From a virus, in IMG/VR virus record IMGVR_UViG_3300046500_000231, positions 74,070 to 113,003 of that record: a stretch of 38,934 nt of DNA. One strand, 5' to 3'. How positions within the stretch are numbered: the stretch's first letter is position 1; the number at the start of each line of letters is the position of its first letter. Made by a program: the position numbers and the translations under genes. Positions 801-34,629 of this stretch are shown piece after piece. The notes beneath the pieces are model-generated. The model was not told the DNA's origin and made no database searches. It saw only the letters and a program-made list of their open reading frames with translations.

Positions 801-814
801 TGTCAATACTGACT
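801..814. promoter_or_regulatory. Operator site 1 (TGTCA-ATAC-TGACT)
   Basis: This 14-bp imperfect palindrome matches the recurrent AGTCA-N4-TGACT element at nine of ten arm positions. It lies 22 bp upstream of the CobT-like start codon, just downstream of the predicted transcription start, where a bound repressor would block elongation or initiation. Function is inferred from recurrence across the window. Confidence 0.6.
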
Positions 815-825
815 GAACAAGTGCA

Positions 826-854
826 ATTGTAGAGACGCATTTCAGGGCACGCAA
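826..854 (-). promoter_or_regulatory. Promoter for CobT-like gene
   Basis: On the minus strand a TTGCGT -35 box (854-849) is separated by 17 bp from a TACAAT -10 box (831-826). The promoter is bracketed by operator sites at 856-869 and 801-814, which suggests joint repression from both flanks. Confidence 0.5.
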
Positions 855-855
855 C

Positions 856-869
856 AGTTATTACTGACT
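856..869. promoter_or_regulatory. Operator site 2 (AGTTA-TTAC-TGACT)
   Basis: A variant of the recurrent palindrome with one arm mismatch, directly upstream of the -35 box of the leftward promoter at 826-854. Longer outer symmetry (ACAG...CTGT) extends the palindrome. Confidence 0.55.
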
Positions 870-880
870 GTTGTTCTGGC

Positions 881-906
881 AAAAAAAACGGCGTCCGAAG
901 ACGCCG
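881..906 (-). terminator. Rho-independent terminator of gene 928-1152
   Basis: On the minus strand a perfect 7-bp stem (CGGCGTC, loop TTCG, GACGCCG) at 906-889 is followed by eight T residues. It lies 22 bp after the stop codon of the small gene at 928-1152 and closes that transcript. Confidence 0.9.
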
Positions 907-927
907 CAAGACTCGCAGGTAAGACTG

Positions 928-1152
928 TTACATGAGCGGGATGAGGGCGGTCGCTCCTGAGTCAGTGCTGATGAGCAAGATGGCTCCCAACGCCGGATGA
1001 ATCATCTTGCTAATCAAGGACGAACCGAGGTCCAGACGCGACACCTGCGACGACTGCTCCAGGTATTCGACGTATTGGTCAGGCTCGATCAGGGCGCCCA
1101 GTTGGGTTGCGGCCGATGCTGCGATGTGTGCTTGCGTGTTACCCGTGTTCAT
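928..1152 (-). CDS. Small hypothetical protein, own operator and terminator
   Basis: Encodes 74 aa of unknown function with no motif I recognise. The N-terminal half is polar (IEPDQYVEYLEQSSQ) and the C-terminal half is hydrophobic (HPALGAILLISTDSGATALIPLM), possibly membrane-associated or a packed helix. I chose the ATG at 1152 because a GGAGAG ribosome site lies 8 nt upstream; the longer frame to 1212 would start inside the promoter. It is a one-gene transcription unit: promoter and palindromic operator at 1202-1220, strong terminator at 881-906. Its isolated placement opposite the XRE regulator gene suggests a regulatory or early role, but nothing in the sequence proves this. Confidence 0.7.
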   Translation of the reverse strand: MNTGNTQAHIAASAATQLGALIEPDQYVEYLEQSSQVSRLDLGSSLISKMIHPALGAILLISTDSGATALIPLM

Positions 1153-1201
1153 TGAGGGAACTCTCCAGAAACTTTTAAACAGTTTGATGCGTTGCTGAAA
1201 C

Positions 1202-1220
1202 ATTATAGTCATCGCTGACT
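1202..1220 (-). promoter_or_regulatory. Promoter with operator site 3 (AGTCA-TCGC-TGACT)
   Basis: On the minus strand TATAAT (1207-1202) abuts a perfect-arm AGTCA-N4-TGACT palindrome (1207-1220). The operator fills the spacer between -10 and -35, as at 17097-17115, so a bound protein would exclude RNA polymerase. It drives the gene at 928-1152. Confidence 0.7.
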
Positions 1221-1309
1221 ATTGTATGTCGATTAGATGCGTCTTTTTTCATCCACTCGGGATTGCATTCGGTAAAAAAGTGAGTAGAATCCGGCACATA
1301 GGCATTGTC

Positions 1310-1323
1310 AGTCAGCACTGACA
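1310..1323. promoter_or_regulatory. Operator site 4 (AGTCA-GCAC-TGACA)
   Basis: A copy of the recurrent palindrome with one arm change. It overlaps a second symmetric reading, TGTCAGT-N4-ACTGACA (1306-1323, within a base). It lies in the divergent region between the gene at 928-1152 and the XRE gene at 1437. Confidence 0.6.
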
Positions 1324-1356
1324 ACCAGCCCAAATGCGATATCTCCCACCAAGTTC

Positions 1357-1386
1357 AGTCAGTAGTTATTACTAGCTGACTATAAT
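1357..1386 (+). promoter_or_regulatory. Autoregulated promoter of XRE gene with wide operator (site 5)
   Basis: AGTCAG at 1357 and CTGACT ending at 1381 are inverted arms set 13 bp apart, with inner near-symmetric TAGT/ACTA pieces. The second arm runs straight into TATAAT (1381-1386), the likely -10 box for the regulator gene at 1437. No good -35 is seen. This is the same arm-to-(-10) geometry as at the minus-strand promoters but with wider spacing, which suggests autoregulation with a different affinity. Confidence 0.6.
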
Positions 1387-1402
1387 CGACTCAACAGAAT
1401 AC

Positions 1403-1416
1403 GCGGGACGTCCCGC
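1403..1416. repeat. Perfect 14-bp palindrome in the regulator leader
   Basis: GCGGGACGTCCCGC is a perfect palindrome in the presumed 5' leader of the XRE gene, between its -10 box and ribosome site. It could form a small hairpin in RNA or bind a dimeric protein. It is unlike the AGTCA family. Confidence 0.5.
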
Positions 1417-1436
1417 ACCGATAAGGAGAGAACAAA

Positions 1437-1859
1437 ATGACCACGAAGAAGAAGCCCGAAGCAATGACTGTCGCCGAATACTTCGATGCACAGGTCGCGC
1501 TACGTCAAATGACGCTGGCACAACTGAGCAAGGACATTGGCGGTGTGCTCAAGCCGAACATGCTGTCGATGATTCGCCAGGGGCACTCGAAGCTGCCGTT
1601 GATTCACGTTGGCCGCGTAGCGCGAGCGCTGGGCGTGGACCCGGTGTTCCTGCTGAAGCTGTGCATGAACGAATACCAACCGGAGAACTGGAAGGCGATT
1701 CAAGAAGTTTTCAGCGAACAGCCGATTCTGACGCGCAACGAGATTGCACTGATCAAGGCGATCCGCGACGCGAACCCGAATAACCCGAAGCTGAGCACGA
1801 AGGCCGACGAGCACAAGTTCACGCAAGTCGTCGCGGCGCTGGGCGGCGATAACGAGTGA
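1437..1859 (+). CDS. XRE-family HTH regulator, candidate master regulator
   Basis: Encodes 140 aa. Residues about 20-75 read as a helix-turn-helix of the XRE/Cro-CI kind (LAQLSKDIGG, then LSMIRQGHSKLPLIHVGRVARALGVD), followed by a 60-residue tail with a second basic/polar helical region. There is no peptidase domain, so it is not a LexA/CI-type self-cleaving repressor. AAGGAGAG lies 7 nt before the ATG. The gene has its own promoter carrying the AGTCA/TGACT arms and a perfect terminator at 1903-1926. It faces the leftward phage genes and sits inside the densest cluster of the palindromes, which makes it the best candidate for the protein that binds them. Repressor or activator action cannot be told from sequence. 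Confidence 0.85.
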   Translation: MTTKKKPEAMTVAEYFDAQVALRQMTLAQLSKDIGGVLKPNMLSMIRQGHSKLPLIHVGRVARALGVDPVFLLKLCMNEYQPENWKAIQEVFSEQPILTRNEIALIKAIRDANPNNPKLSTKADEHKFTQVVAALGGDNE

Positions 1860-1902
1860 GAAGGCGGTAGTCGGTTTCATAGCAGTTCGGTTGGCTTAAA
1901 GA

Positions 1903-1926
1903 AGCGCCCACGAGGGCGCTTTTTTT
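1903..1926 (+). terminator. Rho-independent terminator of XRE gene
   Basis: A perfect 7-bp stem AGCGCCC / GGGCGCT with a four-base ACGA loop is followed by seven T residues, 44 bp after the stop codon. Between here and 2069 I see only a weak inverted repeat (ACTGT...ACAGT, near 1961-1978). Confidence 0.92.
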
Positions 1927-2069
1927 ATGGCTGTATTACAGGGGCTTGCGTCGTCGCCTTACTGTGCATTCATACAGTGGCGAGTCAGTGATGGAATTGT
2001 ATGAGCCTTGAAGGCGAAAGACAACTGGCAGTTACTTTTTTGTTAAAAAATGTTTGCGAGGTGTTACTT

Positions 2070-2093
2070 AAAAAAGACGGCAAAATTTGCCGG
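2070..2093 (-). terminator. Terminator of HTH-PAS gene
   Basis: On the minus strand CGGCAAA and TTTGCCG arms at 2092-2078 form a hairpin followed by TCTTTTTT. It begins at the stop codon of the gene at 2094. Confidence 0.7.
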
Positions 2094-2774
2094 TTATTCC
2101 GCCCTTTTGGTCGCTTCGAAGTGCGGACACCTGCTAACGCCTATCAAACGAATCGGTTGACCCCGATCATTGCGGTAAATTTGAAAGACTATCTCCACTT
2201 TGGGACATAATGCGTCCCTTGGTCGCACCAAAAGTGTGGCTCGCTCGGAAGACTCCAACAGGGTGCGATTGTAGAAATCATCAACCAACGGTTTACAATC
2301 ATCAGATAATAAAGCGCGAAAGCTGTCGTGGGACGGGAGGATCTCGGAGGGAGCGTTTAAGTGTCGGCGTGCGGGGTCGTTCCAATAGCACTTCCCTGTT
2401 AGCAGGTCTTCCTCAATGACACCGACGTCCAATAGATTGATAGCGACTGAGAGCCGCTCCTCATTGGCGATGACTTGTTCGACAAACTCTCTGCGGCGCT
2501 GTCCAAAGGTCTCTTGGGATCGTTGTTCTTCTAAGGACCGCAGCGCTGCGTCACCATAGCGTAGCCAAACCCAATTGACGCCAAGATGGTTGGCTACCTT
2601 CTGTAGCACTTCAAAGCCTATGTCCCCACCTTTGAGCCACTTGCCCACAGCTTGGGGAGTCACTGCAATGGCGCGCGCCAGCCCGGCCGCTGTCTCGTGC
2701 CTGTCATCCAAAGACTTTCTTAACCTATCGGGAAAGCCGGAGCCCTTGAAGTGGGCCGGAATTTTAGGTGTCAA
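2094..2774 (-). CDS. HTH-PAS fusion regulator (putative sensory repressor)
   Basis: Encodes 226 aa from a TTG codon at 2774, supported by AGAGGA 6-7 nt upstream; no ATG lies near. Residues 14-75 form an XRE-type helix-turn-helix (AAGLARAIAVTPQAVGKWLKG). Residues about 105-217 look like a PAS fold: LLDVGVIEEDLLTGKCYWND near 113-132 and a closing strand pair EIVFQIYRND...PIRLIGVSRC near 194-216. PAS domains commonly sense small ligands, redox state or mediate dimers. Phage repressors usually carry a peptidase or a simple dimer domain, so this architecture is uncommon. It lies divergent from parA and may control the partition/replication module or the lysogeny decision; targets are not visible. 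It has its own terminator. Confidence 0.75.
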   Translation of the reverse strand: MTPKIPAHFKGSGFPDRLRKSLDDRHETAAGLARAIAVTPQAVGKWLKGGDIGFEVLQKVANHLGVNWVWLRYGDAALRSLEEQRSQETFGQRRREFVEQVIANEERLSVAINLLDVGVIEEDLLTGKCYWNDPARRHLNAPSEILPSHDSFRALLSDDCKPLVDDFYNRTLLESSERATLLVRPRDALCPKVEIVFQIYRNDRGQPIRLIGVSRCPHFEATKRAE

Positions 2775-3106
2775 ACTCTGTCCTCTTGATAGTTATTTTC
2801 GAAACGTTGCCAAGCTCTTTTAGGGGTAGTTTGTAACGAATTATATTTGAGGACTGATATCGGTTTAGTTGTAATTGTGCAAAGGTTGCCTTCTTTAGAT
2901 TGATGCACCTATCGTGCAAGTATTGTTGATCCCGAGCATAATGGAAAGCAACCTCGTCATGGACAAAAGTTGATACAAAACTTGATAGCTTGATACCAAG
3001 GTATCAACATACCAAGGTATCGAACGTGCTGTTCGGCTTGCAATGTTTCTTGTATGAACATCCACTATGGATTACGCTACCGGCAAAACTTCGTATGGAG
3101 AAGGCT
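2775..3106. other. Divergent intergenic region between HTH-PAS gene and parA
   Basis: This 332-bp gap is AT-richer than its flanks. It holds possible promoters: TATAAT on the minus strand at 2845-2840, and on the plus strand TTGAGG (2847-2852), 17 bp, TGTAAT (2870-2875). The right part carries the TTGATACC repeat cluster at 2970-3021. The open frame upstream of the parA ATG covers the repeats and has no good start. Confidence 0.6.
2970..3021. repeat. Candidate parS centromere / parA operator
   Basis: TTGATACCAAGGTATCAA at 2990-3007 is a perfect 18-bp palindrome. Its core ATACCAAGGTATC recurs at 3009-3021, exactly 16 bp from the copy at 2993, and TTGATA half-sites also occur at 2970 and 2982. 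Such clusters ahead of parA are typical of binding sites for the partition partner protein, serving as centromere and as autoregulatory operator. The site lies 86 bp before the parA start. Confidence 0.7.
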
Positions 3107-3778
3107 ATGAAAAAAGCTAGGTCCGTAACTATGGTGGGAACAGAAAAGGGAGGTGTGGGCAAATCTACCTTTACACAAAACTTGGCATCAATCCGGTCGG
3201 GGCAGGGGCGGCGGGTCGCCGTGTTCGATCTGGACGGCCAGAATTCGACGTTCAAGTGGGCTGCCGACCGACGTGAGGCAGGCGGTTTGCCCGAGGTCCA
3301 CGTCAAGCGTATTGCAAAGGGAAAGAAGCTCGACGAGGACGAGTTTGCCGAGGAATTGGGCGAACTGACCGAGGAATATGAGGACGTTTTCATTGACGTC
3401 GGCGGGCAGGACTCGGACGTGTTCCGGTGGGGACTCGCGGTGGCCGATCACGTCGTCGTGCCGCTCATTCCATCGCCCGCGGACCTCAACACCGTGCCCG
3501 ATCTGTTCGATCTGGTCGGCACCTACACCAAGAAAATCCCGATCCAAATCGTGCTCAATCAGGCCGATAAAAGGAAACTGATGACGCAGGCGATGATCGC
3601 TCAGATCGAGCCTTTCGAGCACCGGCTGCCGCGCATGAAGATGCTGGTGGCGGCTCGCGAGAGCTACAAGTTTGCGATGGCGCAGGGCAGGGGAGTGGCG
3701 GAGTTGACTGGCCGGTATTGGGACGCGGCGGCCGCCAACGAGATGAAAGACCTTTATTTGGGAGTGTTCTCGTTATGA
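3107..3778 (+). CDS. parA: ParA-family partition ATPase
   Basis: Encodes 223 aa, the size of short plasmid ParA proteins without an N-terminal HTH. A deviant Walker A KGGVGKST lies at residues 14-21, DLDGQNS (Walker A') at 41-47 and FIDVGGQDS (Walker B) at 95-103. It drives plasmid segregation by ATP-dependent positioning on the nucleoid together with a centromere-bound partner. The ATG at 3107 is preceded by GGAGAAGG; an in-frame ATG at 3095 lies upstream but lacks a ribosome site. The stop overlaps the start of the ribbon-helix-helix gene at 3775 (ATGA), so the two are co-translated. The absence of an N-terminal DNA-binding domain fits the partner being the repressor of the operon. Confidence 0.9.
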   Translation: MKKARSVTMVGTEKGGVGKSTFTQNLASIRSGQGRRVAVFDLDGQNSTFKWAADRREAGGLPEVHVKRIAKGKKLDEDEFAEELGELTEEYEDVFIDVGGQDSDVFRWGLAVADHVVVPLIPSPADLNTVPDLFDLVGTYTKKIPIQIVLNQADKRKLMTQAMIAQIEPFEHRLPRMKMLVAARESYKFAMAQGRGVAELTGRYWDAAAANEMKDLYLGVFSL

Positions 3779-4128
3779 TCAAATCAGTCATGGGTCCGCC
3801 CCGGCGCAAAAGCGATGAGTTTCGCGAGCAACTGCGGGAGCAGGCCGGCGCCATTGAAGCGTTGCACGAACCAGAGCCCGCAGTCGAACCGGCGGCCGTT
3901 GAGGTGACCGCGCCGGCACGCTCGGGCAAGGGACTCAACCTGCAGGCGATCCGAGCGCAGCAGCCGGCCAAAGAGGTGCCGGTGCAGCAGCCGGTGAGGG
4001 TGCCGCCCTCGCTCAAAGAAGACTTGGATCTGATCTGCTTTGCGCTCAAGAAAACCAAGAACGACTTCATCGTCGAGGCGTTGAAGAAGGAAGTGGCGCG
4101 CGAGAAGAAGCGTCTGGGCTTCGAGTAA
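3775..4128 (+). CDS. Ribbon-helix-helix partition partner (ParB/ParG-like role)
   Basis: Encodes 117 aa. Residues 1-72 are a charged, Pro/Glu-rich, probably flexible region; residues about 73-117 (VRVPPSLKEDLDLICFALKK, TKNDFIVEALKKEVARE) have the strand-helix-helix pattern of CopG/Arc-type DNA-binding domains. In type Ib partition systems a small RHH protein binds the centromere and its disordered tail stimulates ParA; here the order of domains is tail first. The ATG overlaps the parA stop by 4 nt; ATG 3790 is a possible alternative. It most likely binds the TTGATACC repeats at 2970-3021. It is not a classical HTH ParB. Confidence 0.75.
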   Translation: MIKSVMGPPRRKSDEFREQLREQAGAIEALHEPEPAVEPAAVEVTAPARSGKGLNLQAIRAQQPAKEVPVQQPVRVPPSLKEDLDLICFALKKTKNDFIVEALKKEVAREKKRLGFE

Positions 4129-4172
4129 CCGTCTTCTTGCAGACGCTTTTCGGGTTTTCAGATGCGCCTGGG

Positions 4173-4193
4173 CTATTGGGAGGATTTTCAAGT
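4173..4193 (+). repeat. Outlying iteron
   Basis: CTATTGGGAGGATTTTCAAG starts here; it matches the inverted copies near the initiator gene more closely than the tandem array does. It lies over 110 bp upstream of the array and 22 bp before a DnaA box. Confidence 0.75.
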
Positions 4194-4214
4194 TGGCACT
4201 TGGGTGGGCCAACC

Positions 4215-4223
4215 TTATGCACA
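4215..4223 (+). promoter_or_regulatory. DnaA box TTATGCACA
   Basis: Matches the accepted DnaA box consensus TTATNCACA, within the iteron origin and in the same orientation as the box at 4402-4410. Confidence 0.65.
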
Positions 4224-4306
4224 ATCCTCTCGCGCGCGGTTTGTAGACGTTTGTAAACCCGTTTGTATACGCCTCAAACCCTTGCTGGATAAGGCGTTGC
4301 GAGACG

Positions 4307-4393
4307 CTATTGGGAGAAAAGCCAAGTCAAATGGGAGGATTTCCCAGTCAAATGGGAGGAAAGCCCAGTCGGTATTGGGAGGAAAGCCAAGTC
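4307..4393 (+). repeat. Tandem iteron array (four copies)
   Basis: Four direct repeats begin at 4307, 4329, 4350 and 4372, a 21-22 bp period that puts them on one DNA face. Each has a TGGGAG core and ends in CCAAGTC or CCCAGTC. The two middle copies read AAATGGGAGG in place of CTATTGGGAGG. Expected binding sites for the initiator at 4550. Confidence 0.88.
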
Positions 4394-4401
4394 ATCGCCG
4401 G

Positions 4402-4410
4402 TTATGCACA
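4402..4410 (+). promoter_or_regulatory. DnaA box TTATGCACA
   Basis: Second DnaA box of the origin, lying between the direct iteron array and the first inverted iteron. Confidence 0.65.
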
Positions 4411-4412
4411 TG

Positions 4413-4548
4413 GAAAATCCTCCCAATAGCAGAACGAGGGACAGACAGACTTGAAAATCCTCCCAGTGACAACGCCAAAATGGGGGTGCAGAATGCCACC
4501 ACTCCCAATGTGACCCGCATCCTGGCAACCTGAAAATCCTCCCAATAG
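4413..4548 (-). repeat. Inverted iterons before repB
   Basis: Three copies in reverse orientation (GAAAATCCTCCCAATAG type) lie at 4413-4429, 4451-4468 and 4530-4548, with degenerate pieces near 4480 and 4500. The last copy ends one base before the initiator ATG and occupies the place of a Shine-Dalgarno site, so initiator binding there would directly shut off its own gene. Confidence 0.8.
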
Positions 4549-4549
4549 C

Positions 4550-5332
4550 ATGAAGCTCAAGCACGCCACCACTGGGCCGAGCCTGGTTGATCGACATGTG
4601 TCCATGCACAATGACCTGCTCGCGGCGTCGCACGGGCTCAAAACGGTCGCCGAGCAGCGGATCGTCAAGTCATGCGCCGCGAAGCTCGACAGCGTGCGCC
4701 TAGACAGTCATAACCGCTACAAGGTGCGTTTGACGGCCCAGGAGTATGCCGACACCTTCGAGATCGACATGTCCACGGCCTACATTCAACTGAAGTCGGG
4801 ATGCGAGTCGCTCGCCGAGCGCTGGATCACGTGGAGCGAGCCGGTGCAGCGCGGTGCGGTTGCCGTGCATAAGGACCGGTGGGTGAGTGGGGCGACGTAT
4901 GTCGAGAAGGCCGGATGGGTCGAATTGCGGTTCTCGCCCGAAGCAACGCCGTATTTGATGGTCTTGCGCGGCAACCACACGACCTACTTACTCAAACAGG
5001 CTTCGGGGCTTCGCTCGATCTACTCGTGGCGACTGCTCGAGCTCCTCATGCAATTCAAAGACACCGGCTGGCGGCAGATGCCGATCCGCGAGTTCCTGCA
5101 CGCGATGGATGCAAAGCCGAGTCATCTCCAGAACTTCAAGGATGCGCGTCGCCAGATCATCGAGGTGGCTGTCGAGGAGCTCCAAAAGAAAGACGGCTGG
5201 CTTATCAACTGGTCGACGATCAAGGAGGGCCGCAAGGTCACGCAAATCCGCTTCGAGTTTTCGCGCAACCCGCAGGGTCAACTGGCGCTCGAGGACACCA
5301 GCCCGCCGGTAGAGGCGGAGCAATGCAACTAA
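4550..5332 (+). CDS. repB: Rep_3-family plasmid replication initiator (RepB-like)
   Basis: Encodes 260 aa, the usual length for Rep_3 initiators with two winged-helix domains. The first spans about residues 10-125 (LLAASHGLKTVAEQRIV, AQEYADTFEIDMSTAYIQLK) and the second about 140-245 (SGLRSIYSWRLLELLMQF, then LQNFKDARRQIIEVAVEEL and KVTQIRFEF). The protein binds iterons and recruits host DnaA/DnaB for plasmid replication. The first ATG is used here; it has no clear ribosome site because an iteron abuts it, and an ATG at 4604 is possible. Iterons upstream and DnaA boxes on both sides support the role. Together with parA it gives the phage a plasmid prophage state. Confidence 0.92.
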   Translation: MKLKHATTGPSLVDRHVSMHNDLLAASHGLKTVAEQRIVKSCAAKLDSVRLDSHNRYKVRLTAQEYADTFEIDMSTAYIQLKSGCESLAERWITWSEPVQRGAVAVHKDRWVSGATYVEKAGWVELRFSPEATPYLMVLRGNHTTYLLKQASGLRSIYSWRLLELLMQFKDTGWRQMPIREFLHAMDAKPSHLQNFKDARRQIIEVAVEELQKKDGWLINWSTIKEGRKVTQIRFEFSRNPQGQLALEDTSPPVEAEQCN

Positions 5333-5352
5333 TGGTCTTCCGCGCACACGCC

Positions 5353-5392
5353 TTGCTTATCCACAGAAAACGTGGATAACCCTGTGGAGCAA
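5353..5392. promoter_or_regulatory. Paired DnaA boxes in a hairpin after repB
   Basis: A perfect TTATCCACA box at 5357-5365 faces an inverted near-perfect one (GTGGATAA, 5372-5379). The outer flanks, CTTGCT...CCACAG and CTGTGG AGCAAG, are also inverted, so the whole stretch can fold into a long imperfect hairpin. It lies 20 bp after the repB stop and is probably part of the origin. Confidence 0.75.
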
Positions 5393-5394
5393 GC

Positions 5395-5622
5395 ATGCAG
5401 CCTGTCATGAAGGTGGCGCACCGTGAGTGGGAGATTCGCTCCTTTCCCGAGCGTAAGGGCTTTCTCTGGCACGCGTGGGTCGAGGTCGAGCGTGGTCCGT
5501 GGGAAGACGAGGACGACGGCCAGATATTCAACTTCACCGACATTGGCTACTACGACACGGAAGCGGCCGCCGCTCAGCGTGGCGTCGATTGGGCGAAGGC
5601 ATGGCTCGACAGCAACTACTGA
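5395..5622 (+). CDS. Small acidic hypothetical protein
   Basis: Encodes 75 aa of unknown function. It is rich in aromatic residues (HREWEIRSFPERKGFLWHAW) with an acidic stretch (WEDEDDGQIF) and reads like a single compact beta-rich domain ending in a helix (AAAAQRGVDWAKAWLDSNY). ATG 5407 is an alternative start. Its stop overlaps the start of the next gene by one base. Such small genes are common beside plasmid replication genes; no role can be assigned. Confidence 0.65.
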   Translation: MQPVMKVAHREWEIRSFPERKGFLWHAWVEVERGPWEDEDDGQIFNFTDIGYYDTEAAAAQRGVDWAKAWLDSNY

Positions 5623-5879
5623 TGAGAAAGCCGGGTGCCGTTGCGTTAGGTGATGTGGCCGCCCGCGCGAGCCATCTCGACGTGGCATGTTCGCGCTGTG
5701 AGCGCCGCGGTCACTTTCAACTCGCGCGGCTGGTCGCGCGTTTTGGGCCGGACTTCCCGATGACGGACCTGGGCGACCGGCTGGCGAGCTGTCCGCACCG
5801 CAATGCGGCGGATTTCGGGCAGCGCTGCGACGTCCATTTCCCGGGCCTTGCCAACCTCATGAGCGACGACGAGGCGTGA
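5622..5879 (+). CDS. Small Cys-containing protein, zinc-binding candidate
   Basis: Encodes 85 aa, starting at an ATG that shares a base with the preceding stop codon. CSRCERRG near residues 23-30 and CPHR near 57-60, plus a later Cys and His residues, suggest a small zinc ribbon. The core HFQLARLVARFGPDFPMTDL has an amphipathic helix pattern. Function unknown; possibly nucleic-acid or protein binding. Confidence 0.6.
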   Translation: MRKPGAVALGDVAARASHLDVACSRCERRGHFQLARLVARFGPDFPMTDLGDRLASCPHRNAADFGQRCDVHFPGLANLMSDDEA

Positions 5880-5884
5880 CGTTG

Positions 5885-6523
5885 CTACATGCGGCCCCAT
5901 CCGAGCGCGGCAGGTCGGCTGTAATGCGGGTTCTTCATTTTGAGCCAGTCGCGTGTGCGGCCGGCGGTGTAGGGCGCATCGAGCCGCTTTGCCATCACAC
6001 CCTCGAGGTCGAGCGTCGCCGCGTGCTGGAACGCGAGTTCCCCATGTTCTTCGACGCCGCCCGTATAGACGATGACCTTCGTGTCCATGAAGCTCTCACG
6101 CAGCATCGCCTTGCGCTCAAGCAGCCGCATGCGTCGCACGTCCTCTCGACCGGAGGCGAGCATATCGAACACGTAGAGCCTGGCTGGCTGTTCACGAGCA
6201 GCAGCGCGCACCCGCAATGGAACCCGAATGCGCGCCCGCTGCTGGAGGAGCTCGAACGACGGCCGCCCATCCGCTTCGTCCACCGTGAGTTCGGCATCCC
6301 ACACGAAACTGCCCGGCACCGCCTCAAGCGCGGCGACGATATCGGGAAACGAGCCGTTCAGCGAGTTGCCGTTGCGGGACACGAGCGCCACCTGATCGCC
6401 ATCCTTGCGCACCAGCGCGCGGTAGCCGTCGTATTTGATTTCGAAGATCCAGCCTTCGCGCGTGAACGGCGCCCGGGCGAGCGTCGCCAGCATCAGATGC
6501 GTATGGTCAATTGGCGGGATCAT
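5885..6523 (-). CDS. Minimal ATP-dependent DNA ligase, LigD-type adenylation domain only
   Basis: Encodes 212 aa. The nucleotidyltransferase motifs are present: motif I EIKYDGYR with nucleophile K30, motif III VWDAEL at 74-79, motif IV EGVMAKR at 174-180 and motif V WLKMKN at 193-198. The protein ends 14 residues after motif V, so the C-terminal OB-fold that normally completes ligases is absent; the usual length for this family is about 300 aa. It may act with a partner, on nicks only, or be a truncated gene. The ATG at 6523 overlaps the end of the upstream gene (6507-6707) by 17 nt. A second, unrelated T4-type ligase lies at 10279-11667. Confidence 0.85.
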   Translation of the reverse strand: MIPPIDHTHLMLATLARAPFTREGWIFEIKYDGYRALVRKDGDQVALVSRNGNSLNGSFPDIVAALEAVPGSFVWDAELTVDEADGRPSFELLQQRARIRVPLRVRAAAREQPARLYVFDMLASGREDVRRMRLLERKAMLRESFMDTKVIVYTGGVEEHGELAFQHAATLDLEGVMAKRLDAPYTAGRTRDWLKMKNPHYSRPAALGWGRM

Positions 6524-11677: not shown

Positions 11678-12379
11678 TTAGTGTGTGGTTTGTGCGGCTT
11701 CTTTCTCTTTGAGCGCGCGAACGCGCTTGGCGAAATCGAGCATCGTTTCGCCCGGCAGCATCTTGGGCGGGGCGATCGTTGCTCGCGGGGGTTCTGCGGC
11801 GACAGCCGCAGCGGGTGTTGGTGTGGGCATGACTGGTAGTTGCGTTTTCGCCTTCGAACGCTCAGCCGCCTCGACCATGATTGAGGTCACGGCGGCCGTG
11901 AGTGCGTCCGCATAACCGCCGCTACCGACGACCACGCTGGGCGTAACCTGCGGTGCGGTTTTTGTGACGGGAGGCGGCGTGGCGCCCTTCTTCGCCTCAC
12001 GCTCGGCGCGCGCTTCCTTGCTCGCGGCCTTGAGCTCGTCGAGGAACGCCGACGTGATGGGCGCCTTCGCTTGCGCGTTGAAGAATTCGAGTTGCTTGGC
12101 GCGGTCGATGTAGAACATCGCGCGGCCTTCGAGCTGCTCCTGAGCGCGCATGGAGAGCGCCGGGCAGGTCTTGCCTTCGATCGCCGTCGTGCAGCCCGAG
12201 AACACGCTCGGCATCCGGCCTTCCTCGACCGCGGCGACCTTGTTCAGACACACCGCATAACCGGGACGGCAGCCGCCCGCCGCGCAGTAATCCATGTAGT
12301 AGGCGTTCGTGCCCGCTGCGGACTGTGCCGGCGGGTAATACGTGTCGTCTTTGAAGACGGGCTTCTCGATCTGAGCCAT
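11678..12379 (-). CDS. Hypothetical protein with conserved-looking Cys pattern
   Basis: Encodes 233 aa. The N-terminal region holds at least five cysteines (YCAAGGCRPGYAVC, then SGCTTAIEGKTC), possibly metal binding. A charged helix (LDELKAASKEARAEREAKKG) is followed by a Pro/Ala/Thr-rich, probably unstructured stretch and a helical tail (DFAKRVRALKEKEAA). GGGAGAG sits just before the ATG at 12379 and decides it over the longer frame. Function unknown; operon context suggests DNA metabolism. Confidence 0.7.
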   Translation of the reverse strand: MAQIEKPVFKDDTYYPPAQSAAGTNAYYMDYCAAGGCRPGYAVCLNKVAAVEEGRMPSVFSGCTTAIEGKTCPALSMRAQEQLEGRAMFYIDRAKQLEFFNAQAKAPITSAFLDELKAASKEARAEREAKKGATPPPVTKTAPQVTPSVVVGSGGYADALTAAVTSIMVEAAERSKAKTQLPVMPTPTPAAAVAAEPPRATIAPPKMLPGETMLDFAKRVRALKEKEAAQTTH

Positions 12380-13197: not shown

Positions 13198-13216
13198 AGT
13201 ATAGTCAGTAATGACT
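13198..13216 (-). promoter_or_regulatory. Promoter with operator site 6 (AGTCA-GTAA-TGACT)
   Basis: On the minus strand TATACT (13203-13198) abuts a perfect-arm palindrome at 13203-13216. No good -35 is seen at 16-18 bp. It heads the operon 13127 to 7673 (WGR-like, ligase, kinase and others), 71 bp before the first start codon and 18 bp after the primase stop. Confidence 0.75.
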
Positions 13217-17096: not shown

Positions 17097-17124
17097 ATTA
17101 TAGTCAGTAATGACTATTGCTCAA
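17097..17124 (-). promoter_or_regulatory. Promoter with operator site 7 (AGTCA-GTAA-TGACT)
   Basis: The clearest example of the set. On the minus strand TTGAGC (17124-17119), a 16-bp spacer and TATAAT (17102-17097) form a sigma70-like promoter whose spacer is filled by a perfect-arm palindrome (17102-17115). The stop codon of the upstream gene (17114-17116) lies inside the operator. It drives the Hfq-like, helicase and following genes. Confidence 0.82.
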
Positions 17125-18041: not shown

Positions 18042-18797
18042 TCATGCCGCCTCCCGCTCGTAGCTCTCGACGATCTCCTGAACCAGCCCCGAGCGCACCA
18101 CGTCCGCTTTCGAGAACTCGACGTGCCCAACTGCCGGAATCCAGGTCACGCGCTTCAGGGCGTCTTCCAGACCGGAGGGTCCGTGAATGTCCTTCTGGCG
18201 AATGTCACCGTTGACCACGACCTTGCAGTCCTCGCCGATGCGCGTGAGGAACATCTTCATGCCGACCGGCGTGGTGTTCTGGGCTTCGTCGAGGATGACG
18301 AACGCGTCGCGGAACGTGCGGCCGCGCATGAAAGCAAGCGGCACGGCCTCGATGTTGCCCATGCGCATGTGGTATTCGAACGCTCCGGTGCCGAGGCGCT
18401 CGATCAGCACTTCCTTGAACGGCACGAGATACGGGTCGAACTTCTCGCTCAGGTCGCCCGGCAGGAAGCCCATCTCCTCACCCGCTTCCACCGCGGGGCG
18501 CGTGATGATGATCTTTTCGACGCGCTTGTCGCGCAGGGCATCTGCTGCAAGCGCGGTCACAACCCACGTTTTGCCGGTGCCAGCGGGCCCAGTCGCAAAC
18601 GTCAGTGTCTTGCCCTTGATGGACGCGATATAGCGCTTCTGAGCGCTTGTGCGGGCTTCAATCGGCTCGAAGCACGCACGCACCACCTTGCGCTGCTCGG
18701 ATTGAGCGGCGGCGTCGTGGAGCTTGGCATGGTCCTCATGTTGCCGACGATCGGCGCGGGCTTTCTGGCGGGTCTGGTGAGGCTGCTTGCGGGGCAT
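18042..18797 (-). CDS. phoH: PhoH-like ATPase
   Basis: Encodes 251 aa. Walker A GPAGTGKT is at residues 70-77, IITRPAVEAGEEMGFLPGDL near 97-116 is the strongly conserved PhoH block, and Walker B FVILDEAQN is at 166-174. PhoH is common in phages; it is an ATPase of the superfamily 1 helicase type, with RNA-linked roles proposed. The basic N-terminus (MPRKQPHQTRQKARADRR) could bind nucleic acid. A one-gene transcription unit with its own operator and promoter at 18830-18850. It stands next to a metallophosphoesterase, though in a separate unit. Confidence 0.92.
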   Translation of the reverse strand: MPRKQPHQTRQKARADRRQHEDHAKLHDAAAQSEQRKVVRACFEPIEARTSAQKRYIASIKGKTLTFATGPAGTGKTWVVTALAADALRDKRVEKIIITRPAVEAGEEMGFLPGDLSEKFDPYLVPFKEVLIERLGTGAFEYHMRMGNIEAVPLAFMRGRTFRDAFVILDEAQNTTPVGMKMFLTRIGEDCKVVVNGDIRQKDIHGPSGLEDALKRVTWIPAVGHVEFSKADVVRSGLVQEIVESYEREAA

Positions 18798-18829
18798 GAG
18801 GGCGTCCTTGGGGAGTTCTAGGAAAGGCC

Positions 18830-18850
18830 ATTATATAGTCAGTTCTGACT
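18830..18850 (-). promoter_or_regulatory. Promoter with operator site 8 (AGTCA-GTTC-TGACT)
   Basis: On the minus strand TATAAT (18835-18830) is followed upstream by a perfect-arm palindrome (18837-18850). The -35 area is taken by one arm of a GCCTCT-N6-AGAGGC hairpin (18853-18870), giving at best GAGGCA. It drives the PhoH gene. Confidence 0.75.
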
Positions 18851-22058: not shown

Positions 22059-22100
22059 ATGATAAGTCAGTTCTGACTGTTTAGCCAGTCAAATCTGACT
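22059..22100 (-). promoter_or_regulatory. Twin operator sites 9 and 10 ahead of lysis genes
   Basis: AGTCA-GTTC-TGACT (22065-22078) and AGTCA-AATC-TGACT (22087-22100) both have perfect arms and lie 22 bp apart, on one DNA face, which would favour cooperative binding. On the minus strand TATCAT (22064-22059) next to the first site is the likely -10. A double site here suggests the tightest control falls on the lysis operon. Confidence 0.8.
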
Positions 22101-22477: not shown

Positions 22478-22496
22478 TGAATAGTCAGTTCTGAGT
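22478..22496 (-). promoter_or_regulatory. Operator site 11 (AGTCA-GTTC-TGAGT) with weak -10
   Basis: One arm position differs from the perfect palindrome (22483-22496). On the minus strand TATTCA (22483-22478) sits where the -10 lies at the other sites. It precedes the gene at 22124-22456 by 26 bp. Confidence 0.6.
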
Positions 22497-22500
22497 GTAA

Positions 22501-22980
22501 CTAGGCTGACAAGGAAACGCCAGCTTCTTGTTGCGCGGGCGCGACCGACGATTGGATGACCGCAGCGAAGGTGTTCGGGTCGTAGCGCCAGGCATCGCGG
22601 TAGCCGAGCGCGGCCGCGACGGCTTCGCTGCAGAACCACTTGTCCTTGTCGCCTTCGTAGTGACGCCAGGCGAAGCCCAGCAAGCCCAGCGTGTCATACG
22701 CTTGACCCTTATGCTGCTCGAACCAGGCAAGCGCAGCGCTTGCTTGTGCGGGCGTCACGCGGATTTCAAAGACGTCCCAGTCCGCGGGGTCGAGCACAAG
22801 TTCGGCGCGGCGCACGCCGCCATCGAGGTAGGTCGAGCTCCAGCAGACGCTCTTGCCGTCGGCTGTCTGACCCACCACGAGCTCGGCGTGGCTGTAGGGG
22901 CCATCGGTCCACCACTTCGTAGCGACCCCGAGCCAGCCTTTGACGCCGGGGTGCCGGCCTTTGAAAAATGCGACTTTCAT
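22501..22980 (-). CDS. Permuted papain-like (NlpC/P60-type) enzyme
   Basis: Encodes 159 aa. The order His first (YSHAELVV, H31) and Cys later (KWFCSEAVAAALG, C117) is that of circularly permuted NlpC/P60 enzymes such as the YiiX group, which hydrolyse amide or ester bonds. AGGAGA precedes the ATG at 22980. Located after the tail fibre genes and before the lysis block, it might act on cell wall during entry or on host lipids or proteins; substrate unknown. It is not related in sequence order to the NlpC/P60 protein at 34228. Confidence 0.72.
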   Translation of the reverse strand: MKVAFFKGRHPGVKGWLGVATKWWTDGPYSHAELVVGQTADGKSVCWSSTYLDGGVRRAELVLDPADWDVFEIRVTPAQASAALAWFEQHKGQAYDTLGLLGFAWRHYEGDKDKWFCSEAVAAALGYRDAWRYDPNTFAAVIQSSVAPAQQEAGVSLSA

Positions 22981-27954: not shown

Positions 27955-27975
27955 ATTATACAGTCAGAACTGACT
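27955..27975 (-). promoter_or_regulatory. Promoter with operator site 12 (AGTCA-GAAC-TGACT)
   Basis: On the minus strand TATAAT (27960-27955), then a perfect-arm palindrome (27962-27975). TTGGAT at 27984-27979 is a possible -35 with 18-bp spacing. It drives the tail fibre gene and its followers. Confidence 0.78.
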
Positions 27976-27985
27976 GTTATCCAAC

Positions 27986-31500: not shown

Positions 31501-34250
31501 TCACCGAACATGTAGTTGGTGAACTGCTCGGGCGCGTAGCCGATCGCGTTCTTGAGCGTGATGGTGTCGCTGGTGCCCTCGACCGTCACCACGTCCGCAT
31601 CGGTCACCACGTCCGTGTCAAAGAGCGTGACCATCTGGCCGGCAGCAAAGCCCGTGATATCGTCGACGTAGACGCCATCGGGCACGATCGACAGAATCGC
31701 GGTCTCCTGCCCGCCGGCGGCGCGAATGCGGTTCACGCGCACGGCCGAATTGACGCCGCCTGCGATCTGCACGAAGTTGCCGATCACGCTTTGCACTACG
31801 GGCGTTGCGCGCACGACATAGTTCGTGAGCAGCAGCACCTTGTAGTTCGCGCCCGCGACCATCGTGACGGGCTTGTCGAGCTTGAGCACGCTTGCGGTGG
31901 AGCCCACTTCGAGACGTCCCGACTGCGCCCAGGCCGGCATGTCATGCTGCACCAGCACCACGTCGCCCGGCGTGCAGGCAATCGCCTCCACCGGCGCCTC
32001 GAAATCCACCGTCTGGGTGAGGTAGCGGTTCAGGTTGAGCTGGAACGCGCCTTCCTTGTAGGCGGTGGTGATGTTGTCCACGCCGTAGAGCGTGATAGCC
32101 GAGACGTTTTGCGCATTGCCCGCGAGCGCGAGCGTCGGGTCGGTGACCTTGACCGTGTGGGCGCGGTTGTTGTCCGTCTTGTCGTAATAGGTGACGTCGA
32201 TTTCGGTGGCGCGGTCCTTCTGCCCGAGCCACGTCATCTTGAACGTGTCCTTGATGATGTTGCCCATGCCGAACATCATCACGGGGTCCGCCGGCGCCTC
32301 GGTCGTCACGTAATAGCGCGTGCCGACCTGGATCACCTGAGCGTGGCCCACGCGCAGAATGAGCGCGGAGGCATCCCAGAAATTCATCACCTGATCGAGC
32401 GGGCCGTTCCAGGTGAGGCCAGCCGAGTCGCAATACGCCGCCCACGCATAGATCGAGTCCATGTCCAGGCGTGCGATATCGAGCCCCGCGCCGTAGATCG
32501 GGTTGGTGGCCGCGTCGAGCCAGATCCACGCCGGGTTGGTCGAGGGCAACTGCGCGGTCATGGTCGTGCCGTCGGTGCGGCTGTAGACCGTGATGAGCTT
32601 GCCGCCGTGCTGAAACGACACGCTCGGGATGCCCGAGAGCTGGTCGTCCATCTGCACCCGCAAGGCCAAAAGCGCCGTGTGGTTGTAGGCGACGCCATCG
32701 AAGGTGATTTCGTTCAGGTCCGCGAGAAAGGTGTCGGAGGCCGCGGAGTCGGACGTGTCAGTCGGAAAGGACGTGAGCACGCCGTTGCCCGACGGATCGT
32801 AGGTCTGGATCGCGTAGTTGACGTCGCGGCGCACCCGAATCTCGTATTTGCCGAGCGCGAGTTGCGGCGAGGCGAAGCTGCGGCGCACGGTGGAGCGCAG
32901 GTTGTCGGTGATGTGCAGCGCGGTCGCCGTGCCCGTGTGCTGCACGGTCAGCGAGACGGCGGTGGCATCGCTCATCGAAATTGAGCCCGGCCAGGCCGCG
33001 AGCGGCCGCCCCACGTAGCCGCCGTATTTGTTGTAGGCGTTCGACACATCGGTCGCATCGCCATTGGCACCCGTTTGCGCATCCGACACCGTGAGCCCGC
33101 CGATCACTTCCGTGCCGGTGTAGCCCTCGCGCGAAAACACGGTCGCGCCATTAACGATCGGATAGACGTTGACGGTCTTGTAGGTGCTGGTCGTGGTGGA
33201 GCCCATCGGAATCCAGTCACCGGTGCTGCCAAGCGGGCGGTAGTCCACGTCGAGCGAGACGGAGTTCGCCTTGAAGGCGCCCGATTTCTGATCGACCGTA
33301 TAGAGGCCTGCCGGACAGGTGAAGTCCAGACGGAACTGCTCGACGTCCGAGAGCGTGGAGACCGTGATGTAGTCGCCGTTGGAGGGAAGCTGGACGTTCT
33401 TGCTAACGGGGCTGATTACCTTGCTGAACCAGTCGATCGGCGCTTGCGTGGCGTAGCCCAGGCGCGTTTGCACCGTGACGTTGGCGAATTCGTTGATCGG
33501 ACGATCGTTCAGGCGCACGTCGGAGATCGAGGCAATCGGCCCCTCCCCGGCGTTGATCAACATGTAGAGGAACTGGTTGTTGCCGTTCAAGGCAGCATCC
33601 GAGCCACTCATGTTGTTCTCGGTATACATGCCGATGATGTTGCCGGCCGTGCGAAAGCCGTTGCCGTAGATCACCGGCACGGGCACGCCTTCAGCGCTCG
33701 TGTTCTTGGCCCCGTCCGCCCCGTAGGAGGCGGAATTGGACATGTCCGAGCCCGAATTGGTCGCAGTCGGCGGGGGCAGCAGCGCGTTGACGAGCAGCGA
33801 GCCCGCCACCGTCACGGCAACGGCCACCGCGCCCTGCACGATCGCAGCGCCCGTGGCAGCGGAGACGCCAAGCGTGGCGCCCATTGCTGCGCCGTAGGCG
33901 GCGGCTGCCGCACCTGCTGTCACCACCGAGGCGACCGCCACCGCGATCATGGCGACGATGCGGAAGATGCCCTTGCCGCCACCACCACGCGGGATCGGGC
34001 ACATCACCACGTAGTCGTCGGGCTGCAGGTAGGTCTTGGCGAGCTCAGCCGGCGCGATGATGCCGCCATTGACAGAGATGACGTGATCCTCCAGCGACAG
34101 CACCTTGGGCAGATACGCCGCGAGCGACTTGTTCTTGCGATAGGCCCACTGCTCGACCTCGACCGCGCGAAGCGGCTCAAACGGGTTGGTGACCCGGCGA
34201 GCGGTGACGAACTTCTTGGCGCGGGGCTTACGAGGCTTGGCAGTATTCAT
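28554..34250 (-). CDS. gpJ-like tail tip / host specificity protein
   Basis: Encodes 1898 aa. A hydrophobic, Ala/Gly-rich segment (about residues 95-160) precedes EGVPVPVIYGNGFRTAGNII near 190-210 and the LNDRPI region that match the lambda gpJ core. Fibronectin-type strands follow (about 1000-1280), then about four SRIDTV...AAIQTEQTAR coiled-coil repeats, a carbohydrate-binding-like beta domain and a Gly-rich end. It forms the central tail tip and contacts the receptor. The ATG at 34250 overlaps the NlpC/P60 gene by 23 nt; a TTG start at 34292 is less likely. Confidence 0.9.
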   Translation of the reverse strand: MNTAKPRKPRAKKFVTARRVTNPFEPLRAVEVEQWAYRKNKSLAAYLPKVLSLEDHVISVNGGIIAPAELAKTYLQPDDYVVMCPIPRGGGGKGIFRIVAMIAVAVASVVTAGAAAAAYGAAMGATLGVSAATGAAIVQGAVAVAVTVAGSLLVNALLPPPTATNSGSDMSNSASYGADGAKNTSAEGVPVPVIYGNGFRTAGNIIGMYTENNMSGSDAALNGNNQFLYMLINAGEGPIASISDVRLNDRPINEFANVTVQTRLGYATQAPIDWFSKVISPVSKNVQLPSNGDYITVSTLSDVEQFRLDFTCPAGLYTVDQKSGAFKANSVSLDVDYRPLGSTGDWIPMGSTTTSTYKTVNVYPIVNGATVFSREGYTGTEVIGGLTVSDAQTGANGDATDVSNAYNKYGGYVGRPLAAWPGSISMSDATAVSLTVQHTGTATALHITDNLRSTVRRSFASPQLALGKYEIRVRRDVNYAIQTYDPSGNGVLTSFPTDTSDSAASDTFLADLNEITFDGVAYNHTALLALRVQMDDQLSGIPSVSFQHGGKLITVYSRTDGTTMTAQLPSTNPAWIWLDAATNPIYGAGLDIARLDMDSIYAWAAYCDSAGLTWNGPLDQVMNFWDASALILRVGHAQVIQVGTRYYVTTEAPADPVMMFGMGNIIKDTFKMTWLGQKDRATEIDVTYYDKTDNNRAHTVKVTDPTLALAGNAQNVSAITLYGVDNITTAYKEGAFQLNLNRYLTQTVDFEAPVEAIACTPGDVVLVQHDMPAWAQSGRLEVGSTASVLKLDKPVTMVAGANYKVLLLTNYVVRATPVVQSVIGNFVQIAGGVNSAVRVNRIRAAGGQETAILSIVPDGVYVDDITGFAAGQMVTLFDTDVVTDADVVTVEGTSDTITLKNAIGYAPEQFTNYMFGEATKVKKPFRIKSITLATSSLNRHITALEYNPAVYDLSSYADVTSTLVAPTLPAEAAAISQVQSLSVYEETYVAGTQILSDVRAAWNTPQVGSYAGADVYVSVNGGAMTLRQSVQAATSYVVAGASAGDKLVVKVVAYDLWGKRASYDNAPSMSYTVVGYVGNIQVADVSGADFIWAGRDCKVFWNYNATTASFEFGSEPNGADSGTRDAHFQDYEVRVKDHDGKLLRTEHTTDNSYIYTYEKNVADGTHRRLTFEIAVRDIFNNVGSPAVLDAYNPPPQVTAVTTSSSFDRLQVNFNHTEDTDYAGAQIFLRWSGDLEISTTPAYDGPDTSVLLTNLMFNSDYYFTIVPYDAFGLDETIPTQEFHARTTYMDVAAIADGVLKDSQLIPGLQTRINLVDAPPSIIGSVNERINTAKDVLNTAIATNTAAITTEQTSRVAADGSLSSRIDTVVASNSGNAAAIQSEQTARANADGALSTRIDTVVASTASNTAAITSEATARTSADNALSTRIDTVSANTGNNTAAVQTEAAARTAADSALATQINTVAASFGFDATNLCANPVANNGTTGWSAVTVVSKALSDVPTGAPSLNVFKQNTKDNFFSGRTVDVSPGQQHYFECYCASPVAAAAFKIGAKFSTPSGTVSYLAAATQTATTTWTRISGSVTVPAGVNQLTLWTNIGISGTDENNRWYFTDVEWRPMNQVQPAMAAISTAQTALAAADSALSTRIDSVNASLGTTNANVQTETNARVAGDQANATSITNLTTTVGSHTTTISQQTSSINGLSAQYTVKVDNNGYVTGFGLASTVVNGAPRSEFIVRSDTFSVVLPGYSSVRPFTIGAVYGTPRVIISNALIGDASIDNAKIGDAQITAAKIASANILTAHIGTAQIDTLRIAGNAVTTMVTTSSATFAQFTYGSRGGICLIIGNANADYCDINIDGNFGGSGSGAVTWCGYLGAGNHTISGSTGTGTVMTLTVLECLR

Positions 34251-34608
34251 AAAATCCGACGATCCGTTGCTTCCAGTGGTCGAGACGCTCAATCACCACA
34301 CCCCCGGATTGCTCCCAGGTGTGAATAAAGCGAGAGTCAGGAATGACTATCCCGCAGTGCGCAATAAAGCGCCCTGTCTTGAACATGACGAGCGTGCCCT
34401 CCTTGGGGTGCTCGATGCGCTTCCAGAACTCACGCGAACCCACCATCAGCGCGTGAATCATCCCCGCATCTTCCGGCGCCCCGTAGTCGGGTGGCGTCAC
34501 ACCCGTATCGCGCGCGATGATGTAGCGGCACAGGCCATAACAGTCGAAACTGTCAGGGCCGCGGCCGCCGCGCTCGAAGGGAATGCCGATCAGTTCAGTG
34601 TTCGTCAT
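34228..34608 (-). CDS. NlpC/P60 tail tip peptidase (gpK-like)
   Basis: Encodes 126 aa. Catalytic C23 lies in FDCYGLCRY and H84 in FIAHCGIVI, with H96 as third-residue candidate. Such enzymes sit in the tail tip between gpL and gpJ genes and cut peptidoglycan cross-links during DNA entry. Unlike lambda gpK there is no N-terminal JAB domain. No separate gpI-like gene is seen between it and gpJ. The operator-like site at 34616 ends 8 bases before the ATG and there is no clear ribosome site. Confidence 0.85.
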   Translation of the reverse strand: MTNTELIGIPFERGGRGPDSFDCYGLCRYIIARDTGVTPPDYGAPEDAGMIHALMVGSREFWKRIEHPKEGTLVMFKTGRFIAHCGIVIPDSRFIHTWEQSGGVVIERLDHWKQRIVGFYEYCQAS

Positions 34609-34615
34609 GGTGGAT

Positions 34616-34629
34616 AGTCAGAATTGCCT
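34616..34629. promoter_or_regulatory. Operator-like site 13 (AGTCA-GAAT-TGCCT)
   Basis: One arm base differs from the perfect palindrome. On the minus strand TATCCA takes the -10 place, but this would put the transcription start at or past the ATG at 34608. The site may bind protein without being a promoter, for example as a roadblock. Confidence 0.5.

Follow-up and report, generated by a model that had tools for sequence, protein, structure and literature searches.

The stretch of DNA that we analysed (the window, 38,934 nucleotides with a G+C content of 60.8%) comprises bases 74,070 to 113,003 of the 113,003-bp virus record IMGVR_UViG_3300046500_000231, and it carries a dispersed palindrome, AGTCA-N4-TGACT, that we propose to be the operator of a 140-residue XRE/Cro-CI-type protein encoded in the window itself (1437-1859). 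We put at roughly 0.85 the probability that this protein is a master lysogeny repressor that acts through these sites to silence the lytic programme of the element. The XRE protein is very probably the regulator of the palindromes, and the same repressor-operator switch, with protein and word changed to match, very probably recurs across a large family of phage-plasmids. The evidence is computational: the sites themselves, where they lie, how well they are conserved, and how the protein and its half-site co-vary. Judged by gene content and synteny, the element is itself a phage-plasmid of the SSU5/AB_1 supergroup, with a siphovirus-type genome of about 110 kb and with replication and partition genes (ParA at 2990-3778 and a Rep3 initiator at 4550-5332, both in the window). 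It has in common with the supergroup a syntenic locus of MoxR, CobT, a small open reading frame (ORF) and the XRE gene, and its capsid protein, encoded like the portal and terminase elsewhere in the 113-kb record, outside the window, shares 55% identity with its counterpart in Salmonella phage SSU5 and 65% with those of two Stenotrophomonas phages. Parts of the window, compared by megablast with phages and plasmids, gave no match.

With perfect arms, the palindrome occurs 29 times in the whole 113,003-bp record that holds the window (hereafter G000; related records are numbered G002 to G025), against 0.035 per shuffle (maximum 2 in 200 shuffles), and eight times in the window, against 0.012 per shuffle (maximum 1 in 500 shuffles). 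A further 19 copies in the 113-kb record have one mismatch in the arms. When two mismatches are allowed, the window holds 18 copies against 9.6 by shuffle, and therefore we trust only the copies with zero or one mismatch. The spacer is equally strict: over the whole record, a spacer of 4 gives the 29 copies, and every other spacer from 0 to 15 gives zero or one each. A preliminary description of this DNA had listed twelve copies and a pair of split arms and had suggested the comparison with shuffled controls given above. All twelve are in place, as are the split arms (1357-1361 and 1377-1381); the seven copies that it called perfect are so, and an eighth, at 34335, had escaped it.

That description had also placed the copies between genes, and this is the case for 167 of the 180 perfect copies in G000 and eight relatives, in which the non-coding share is 6-21% per record. 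In G000, 26 of 29 perfect copies are intergenic, most sites lie 1-125 bp ahead of a start codon, and 43 of the 166 genes called by our custom script have a site with zero or one mismatch within 200 bp upstream. Sites stand ahead of genes on both strands, and the plus-strand partition and replication stretch (about 2990-5380) holds none. Nine related records were compared, one of which, the 34-kb fragment G003, lacks AGTCA-N4-TGACT; in G000 and the other eight, it is the top-ranked palindrome with 5-bp arms in every record (for instance, 28 perfect sites in G025 and 8 in G018), and the site is kept in 132 of 169 pairs formed by a G000 gene and its best hit in a relative. The reversed-pattern control gave 14 matches in G025, on the face of it a failure of the control; since the palindrome continues into the flanks, however, 11 of these matches overlap perfect sites.

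We also searched 14 whole genomes that hold a relative, with the reversed pattern as a control, and the outcome was mixed. Among the matches listed, all those in Magnetospirillum (19 of 19), Chitinibacter (13 of 13) and Roseospira (3 of 3) lie on one contig, the relative's, while the 34 in Methylocystis fall on three contigs, one of them the relative's, and one of the two in Phyllobacterium lies on another contig than the relative's. The remaining host genomes have 0 to 11 matches, mostly no more than the reversed control. The word is confined to the element where the element uses it and stands at background level elsewhere. These counts bear on the idea that the palindromes are partition or packaging sites, or chance. 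Dispersed short palindromes on a plasmid could be centromere sites, and in several host genomes the counts equal the control (Photobacterium, 11 against 10). Against this, chance is excluded by the shuffles, sites are found ahead of genes on either strand, the palindrome co-varies with a transcription factor, and three host genomes confine the word to the relative's contig; we rejected both versions on these grounds and give them next to no credence.

The 140-residue protein, its relatives and their half-sites

The domain and the predicted fold of the protein are of the XRE/Cro-CI type. HTH_3 is matched at 22.2 bits (E 1.5e-4), just below the gathering score of 23, and the AlphaFold model (mean pLDDT, the predicted local distance difference test, 91.6) places the helix-turn-helix at helices 27-33 and 40-48, the latter being the predicted recognition helix, with K39 directly ahead of it. 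A fold search gave no match at E <= 0.001 and ranked 434 Cro fourth (E 0.0074, template modelling score 0.83 by target) and P22 c2 sixteenth, and a profile search found 8bny, a chain of an immunity repressor, at E 3.5e-6 and 434 Cro at E 0.004. No S24 peptidase domain was found in Pfam or NCBIfam at E <= 0.05, so that the protein is not of the self-cleaving LexA/CI type. The gene lies near those for DNA polymerase III alpha, a MoxR/CobS-like ATPase, a CobT-like protein and a small ORF; wherever a relative has the neighbouring CobT-like gene (six records), it has the XRE gene too, at 35-74% identity, and the three fragmentary relatives without the former are also without the latter.

The sites at 1207, 1310 and 1357-1381 fall between the XRE gene and a divergent 74-residue gene, and in G011 and G020 a site with one mismatch stands 10 bp ahead of the TATAAT of the corresponding XRE promoter. 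Orthologs of the 74-residue protein were found at 38-66% identity in four relatives; a search with the 94-residue reading frame that includes it gave no family match in Pfam or PHROGs. In distant phage-plasmids, the corresponding slot holds a small ORF of 64-82 residues, and profile comparisons of these partners between clades gave scores too weak for a claim of homology.

The XRE slot is also found in the Rhizobium phages RHEph10 and B1VFA, in Klebsiella pJN2-26, and in plasmids of Acinetobacter, Escherichia, Buttiauxella, Cronobacter and Methylobacterium; in a plasmid collection, 544 records match the XRE protein, of which 305 are from Klebsiella, 155 from Acinetobacter and 43 from Escherichia. 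In its exact form, AGTCA-N4-TGACT does not occur in SSU5, pJN2-26, ANB28, nickie or one Acinetobacter plasmid; in every clade, however, a clade-specific 14-bp palindrome is dispersed, with half-sites AGTCA, AGTAA, AATCA or GGTAA. For instance, AGTAA-N4-TTACT occurs 31 times in B1VFA and 12 times in Acinetobacter ZW85p2, while palindromes with AGTCA half-sites number 28 in Methylobacterium and 23 in a second Acinetobacter type. RHEph10 mixes half-sites (AATCA 7, AGTCA 3), and perfect AATCA copies, in which position 2 of the half-site is changed, also occur in the other alphaproteobacterial elements L161 (5) and L167 (4). In enterobacterial elements, GGTAAGTACTTACC-like words are found, with a weaker signal that is outranked by the palindrome AAACAANTTGTTT. 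The latter is a second dispersed intergenic palindrome, with 10-15 copies each in pJN2-26, SSU5, Buttiauxella, E. coli CT29 and Cronobacter and none in the other records tested, and we set it aside as a separate system. SSU5 has nine copies of GTAA-N4-TTAC against 1.0 expected, yet no XRE gene, and by annotation it also lacks the small ORF and the integrase of the XRE slot. Furthermore, the orthologs of site-preceded G000 genes tend to stand behind sites in other elements as well (p<0.02 in seven of eight comparisons).

The key residue was defined from 16 reference proteins: it precedes by two positions an Asn that is almost invariant in the recognition helix, and it corresponds to K39 of the window protein; in these references, K, R or Q goes with a TCA half-site and N with TAA. 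Because the XRE alignment has no conserved stretch, we gathered 100 loci through the neighbouring MoxR-like protein, taking 80 of 272 matching relatives in the viral scan; three loci (L177-L179) are the records G002, G004 and G011 again. An XRE match was present in 75 loci and missing in 25; 67 passed 60 bits, and eight under 60 bits were left out. Together with the references this made 83 rows, of which seven had no class or a tied one, and the 76 classed rows formed 37 clusters at 60% identity. K or R at residue 39 goes with TCA in 24 of 24 clusters and N with TAA in six of eight, for a Fisher p (N versus rest) of 8e-5 over clusters that are not independent of one another; S, T or Q goes with TCA in four of four, and A with TAA in one. 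Lysine and arginine read the G of a C-G pair and asparagine the A of an A-T pair, and the observed pairings fit this chemistry. When all columns were ranked without prior choice over the 37 clusters, K39 and M45, both at the recognition helix, were the most tied to half-site class, and in the 27 clusters free of references K or R goes with TCA in 18 of 18 and N with TAA in three of five (p=0.013). Among the loci under the 60-bit cut, L234 (K39, three AGTCA sites) agrees with the co-variation, and L175 and L238 have two AGTAA sites each and helices too poorly matched to read. In an independent-pairs test on the protein tree, the supported branches hold only one pair, too few for a formal phylogenetic p-value.

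The preliminary description had suggested that a single element-encoded regulator governs the dispersed operons and had named the protein at 1437-1859 for binding tests; the co-variation of its recognition helix with the operator across relatives lends support to both suggestions, and what goes beyond them is a supergroup-wide system with a drifting operator. It might be asked whether another protein binds the palindrome, such as a second XRE protein (226 residues, 2097-2774, minus strand, convergent with the first) or the 74-residue protein, since both genes share the control region and are kept in near relatives. We consider this very improbable. The 226-residue protein was found in G002, G004, G020 and G011 only and not in G025 and G018, which carry sites; the 74-residue protein has no Pfam or PHROGs family; and neither accounts for a half-site that tracks residues 39 and 45 of the 140-residue protein. 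The C-terminal part of the 226-residue protein appears PAS-like by eye, and family searches gave no support for this.

Promoter geometry and mode of action

To place the sites relative to promoters, we sought, in 34 orthologous site groups (relatives G025 and G018 left out), a sigma-70-type promoter common to all members, with 200 column shuffles of the flanks as a control. A conserved promoter was found at p<=0.01, uncorrected for the number of groups, in 18 of the 34 groups, at 15 promoters. The site centres of these 18 groups fall at -40.5 to -43.5 (seven), at -18.5 to -20.5 (six) and at +3.5 to +12.5 (five), and two promoters each have a site on either side of the start. In G025, a more distant relative, a -10-like hexamer lies most often 7 bp ahead of the site (20% of 40 sites, with +14 and -9 at 12% each), and therefore the site tends to cover the start point there. 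Activators are inactive from +3 to +12, while repressors tolerate all the observed positions, and this geometry is our main ground for reading the XRE protein as a repressor: site positions from -43.5 to +12.5 on conserved promoters favour repression.

We infer that the XRE protein binds as a dimer, using its recognition helix to read both of the 5-bp half-sites in the 14-bp palindrome. Bound at or next to the promoters that drive the capsid, tail, lysis, replication, repair and accessory operons, it would block RNA polymerase, and one protein could thus keep the entire lytic programme of a plasmid-borne prophage silent. By binding its own divergent promoter, it would set its own level, and its loss or inactivation would presumably release all operons simultaneously.

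Alternatively, the protein could be chiefly an activator or act in both ways: like a late-gene activator, it would switch on promoters whose sites lie near -41.5 and at -18.5 to -20.5, and it would repress only a few. Seven of the 18 groups have their sites at -40.5 to -43.5 and six at -18.5 to -20.5, several of these with poor -35 boxes, and in six genomes an extended -10 is conserved at the head-gene promoter, whose site lies at -41.5 (p=0.055). Nevertheless, five of the 18 groups have a site that covers the start point or lies downstream of it, two sites flank the start of the CobT-like promoter (-43.5 and +11.5), and the promoter behind the G000 site at 12062, with the site centred at -43.5, has TTGACA 17 bp from its -10 in six of six members. 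In addition, -35 scores are alike in the three site classes (means 2.97, 2.01 and 2.18 bits; classes made of groups with p<=0.03 plus two more, and including site 22065, whose placement at -42.5 is doubtful, two of its five members having a poor -10), and therefore there is no sign of upstream sites replacing the -35 element. Lysogen data from a relative bear on the same question. In the available part of the report on the phage-plasmid Cyrano in E. coli LF82, the XRE ortholog CYRAN_45 is among the genes expressed in the lysogen and appears in Table 1 as a 'putative repressor', 10-fold over background, and ciprofloxacin induces Cyrano 39-fold (PMC9928086). Under a permissive criterion that tolerates up to three departures from GGTAAGTACTTACC, no more than one of them in the arms, sites stand before 12 Cyrano genes, and besides CYRAN_45 none of the other 11 is in that expressed list, which agrees weakly with repression. 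Altogether, we find an activating or dual role unlikely and retain repression.

A third possibility is that RNA polymerase, carrying a sigma factor encoded by the element, recognises the word as part of a promoter. The element does encode a sigma-70/ECF-type (extracytoplasmic function) protein next to its MoxR-like gene (70900-71547 in G000, 11500-12147 in L004), with counterparts so annotated in RHEph10 and ZW85p2. A strict dyad with a fixed spacer is, on the contrary, typical of a dimeric regulator, and the distance from the site to the conserved -10 varies over 56 bp, unlike that of any promoter element; we rejected this possibility on that variation and find it scarcely credible.

Several observations weigh against a repressor-operator switch of the kind proposed. 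For sixteen of the 34 site groups, no promoter reaches p<=0.01, and sites at -41.5 could also activate. In Cyrano, 14 of 123 genes are in the expressed list, so none of 11 is near chance. No SOS route is evident, because the protein has no S24-type cleavage domain. Sharing of targets with pJN2-26 reaches only p=0.065. As for the co-variation, the N39 clusters L170 (Photobacterium) and L239 have TCA operators, and L214, a fragment under the 60-bit cut, has T39 with four AGTAA sites. In the reference-free clusters the top columns are P40 and K39, with M45 fifth; when at least two sites are also demanded, one TAA cluster is left (p=0.14) and K39 and M45 fall outside the top seven, so that the co-variation is not seen in this strictest subset, which is without power. 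Finally, the best protein tree needs seven changes of class, of which well-supported branches force one.

A broader proposal, to which we give somewhat less than an even chance, is that one orthologous master repressor governs lysogeny in a supergroup of phage-plasmids that extends across the proteobacteria (SSU5 kin, pKpn, AB_1, Rhizobium, Methylobacterium and many other elements). Its operator alphabet would have switched repeatedly among AGTCA, AATCA, AGTAA and GGTAA, partly via residues 39 and 45, with dozens of sites per genome rewritten in step; immunity types might then be readable from a few amino acids, and the small divergent partner might be an antagonist. Elements with the XRE gene turn up often in plasmid records of Klebsiella, Acinetobacter and Escherichia, and they can harbour resistance genes. 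A candidate regulator, its regulon and a readable operator for each clade would make induction, immunity and incompatibility testable, and a repressor that shifts specificity together with some 15-50 dispersed sites would amount to a natural experiment.

Sites in the window and neighbouring features

Table 1. Putative operators and the two divergent genes of the control region, in window coordinates; centres are relative to the start point of the conserved promoter.
Feature	Position	Strand	Context
Putative operator, 1 mismatch	801-814	-	centre +11.5 of conserved CobT-like gene promoter
Putative operator, 1 mismatch	856-869	-	centre -43.5 of conserved CobT-like gene promoter
74-residue gene, divergent from XRE gene	928-1152	-	small partner
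Putative operator, perfect	1207-1220	-	before 74-residue gene, centre -18.5, abuts its TATAAT
Putative operator, 1 mismatch	1310-1323	+	divergent region before XRE gene; conserved promoter not placed (p=0.195)
Split arms AGTCA/TGACT	1357-1381	+	second arm overlaps TATAAT of XRE promoter
XRE/Cro-CI-type regulator, 140 residues	1437-1859	+	HTH_3; proposed master repressor
Putative operator, perfect	13203-13216	-	before WGR/ligase operon, centre -41.5 (-18.5 scores nearly equal)
Putative operator, perfect	17102-17115	-	before Hfq-domain gene and helicase, centre -18.5
Putative operator, perfect	18837-18850	-	before phoH, centre -19.5
Putative operator, perfect	22065-22078	-	nearer of pair, before 116-residue gene of lysis operon; promoter placement uncertain
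Putative operator, perfect	22087-22100	-	second of lysis-operon pair, centre -41.5
Putative operator, 1 mismatch	22483-22496	-	before 110-residue gene; promoter alignment p=0.03, centre -2.5
Putative operator, perfect	27962-27975	-	before 1466-residue tail-fibre gene, centre -20.5
Putative operator, perfect	34335-34348	-	inside 126-residue tail-peptidase gene, 85 bp before 1898-residue tail gene
Putative operator, 1 mismatch	34616-34629	-	before 126-residue tail-peptidase gene, centre +3.5

The position of the intragenic site at 34335 is kept in G002, G011 and G008 (perfect) and in G005 (one mismatch), and no conserved promoter was found for it (p=0.315). The gene behind the site at 17102 encodes a 143-residue protein with an Hfq domain (PF17209; 16610-17041, minus strand). 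Elsewhere in G000, the sites at 72843 and 47073 lie within a larger hairpin (GGGAAC...GTTCCC-like), both sides of whose stem differ from relative to relative; each site is followed by GCAACGTTGC, of which a third copy lies at 41431. The record also has a ParB-like gene (18146-18799) and two copies of TTTCACGTGAAA, which we take to be the core of the bacterial chromosomal parS word, at 22873 and 23694 (3073 and 3894 in L002), adjoining sites at 22858 and 23707; two further copies were found in G002 and one each in G011, G020 and G005, and none in the other records tested.

Relation to known systems

A parallel in layout is the C1 regulon of P1, in which one element-encoded repressor reportedly acts at operators dispersed over many promoters, with one at its own promoter. 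The present element is likewise a phage-plasmid, with one candidate repressor of its own, many near-identical sites at promoters across the element (29 perfect and 19 with one mismatch) and sites at the promoter of the candidate itself (1310 and 1357-1381 ahead of its gene, and 1207 ahead of the divergent neighbour). The P1 operator is an asymmetric 17-bp word, in contrast to the 14-bp palindrome found here, which is paired with a 434-Cro-like XRE protein; that the site differs from that of P1 had also been remarked in the preliminary description. Repressors of the Cro-CI type of phages 434, P22 and lambda have in common with the present one the HTH_3 fold and a 14-bp operator, since those of the 434/P22 type read operators of this length; unlike them, the sites here extend beyond one control region, and no self-cleaving C-terminal domain was found.

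Among temperate phages, the master repressor MrpR (YopR) of SPbeta also has a dispersed, intergenic repeated element, which was found in silico and later shown to bind the repressor (PMC10516654). According to the available part of that report, MrpR differs from the XRE protein in its tyrosine-recombinase fold, in that about ten bound promoter regions are named, and in belonging to an integrated Bacillus prophage (PMC10516654). Cluster A mycobacteriophages, as far as the accessible accounts of them go, also have numerous genome-wide sites (stoperators) and an evolving immunity system, with the difference that a monomeric repressor there terminates elongation at asymmetric sites, whereas the sites here are palindromic and lie at promoters. 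The XRE-smORF lysis modules of linear plasmid-like phages also have a small ORF that points away from the XRE gene; in the portion of the work at hand, XRE and LuxR activate this ORF, whose product disables a separate cI (PMC10432266). The gene arrangement is all that the two have in common, and here the XRE protein itself is the best candidate for a master repressor.

By synteny and capsid protein, the element belongs to the same class as the SSU5_pHCM2, pKpn, pSLy3 and AB_1 types, for which the accessible parts of the reviews name no master repressor, operator or lysogeny switch (PMC11652158, PMC9600943, PMC12977533). The preliminary description knew of no described match, and this agrees with the openly licensed literature, in which we found no description of the XRE regulator as such, of its operator, or of any operator of the SSU5/AB_1 supergroup; the nearest entry, in the part of the source available, is the 'putative repressor' CYRAN_45 (PMC9928086). 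Thus, although repressors with dispersed operators are already known from P1 C1, SPbeta MrpR and the stoperators of mycobacteriophages, the proposed regulator, its operator and their spread across the supergroup appear to be new.

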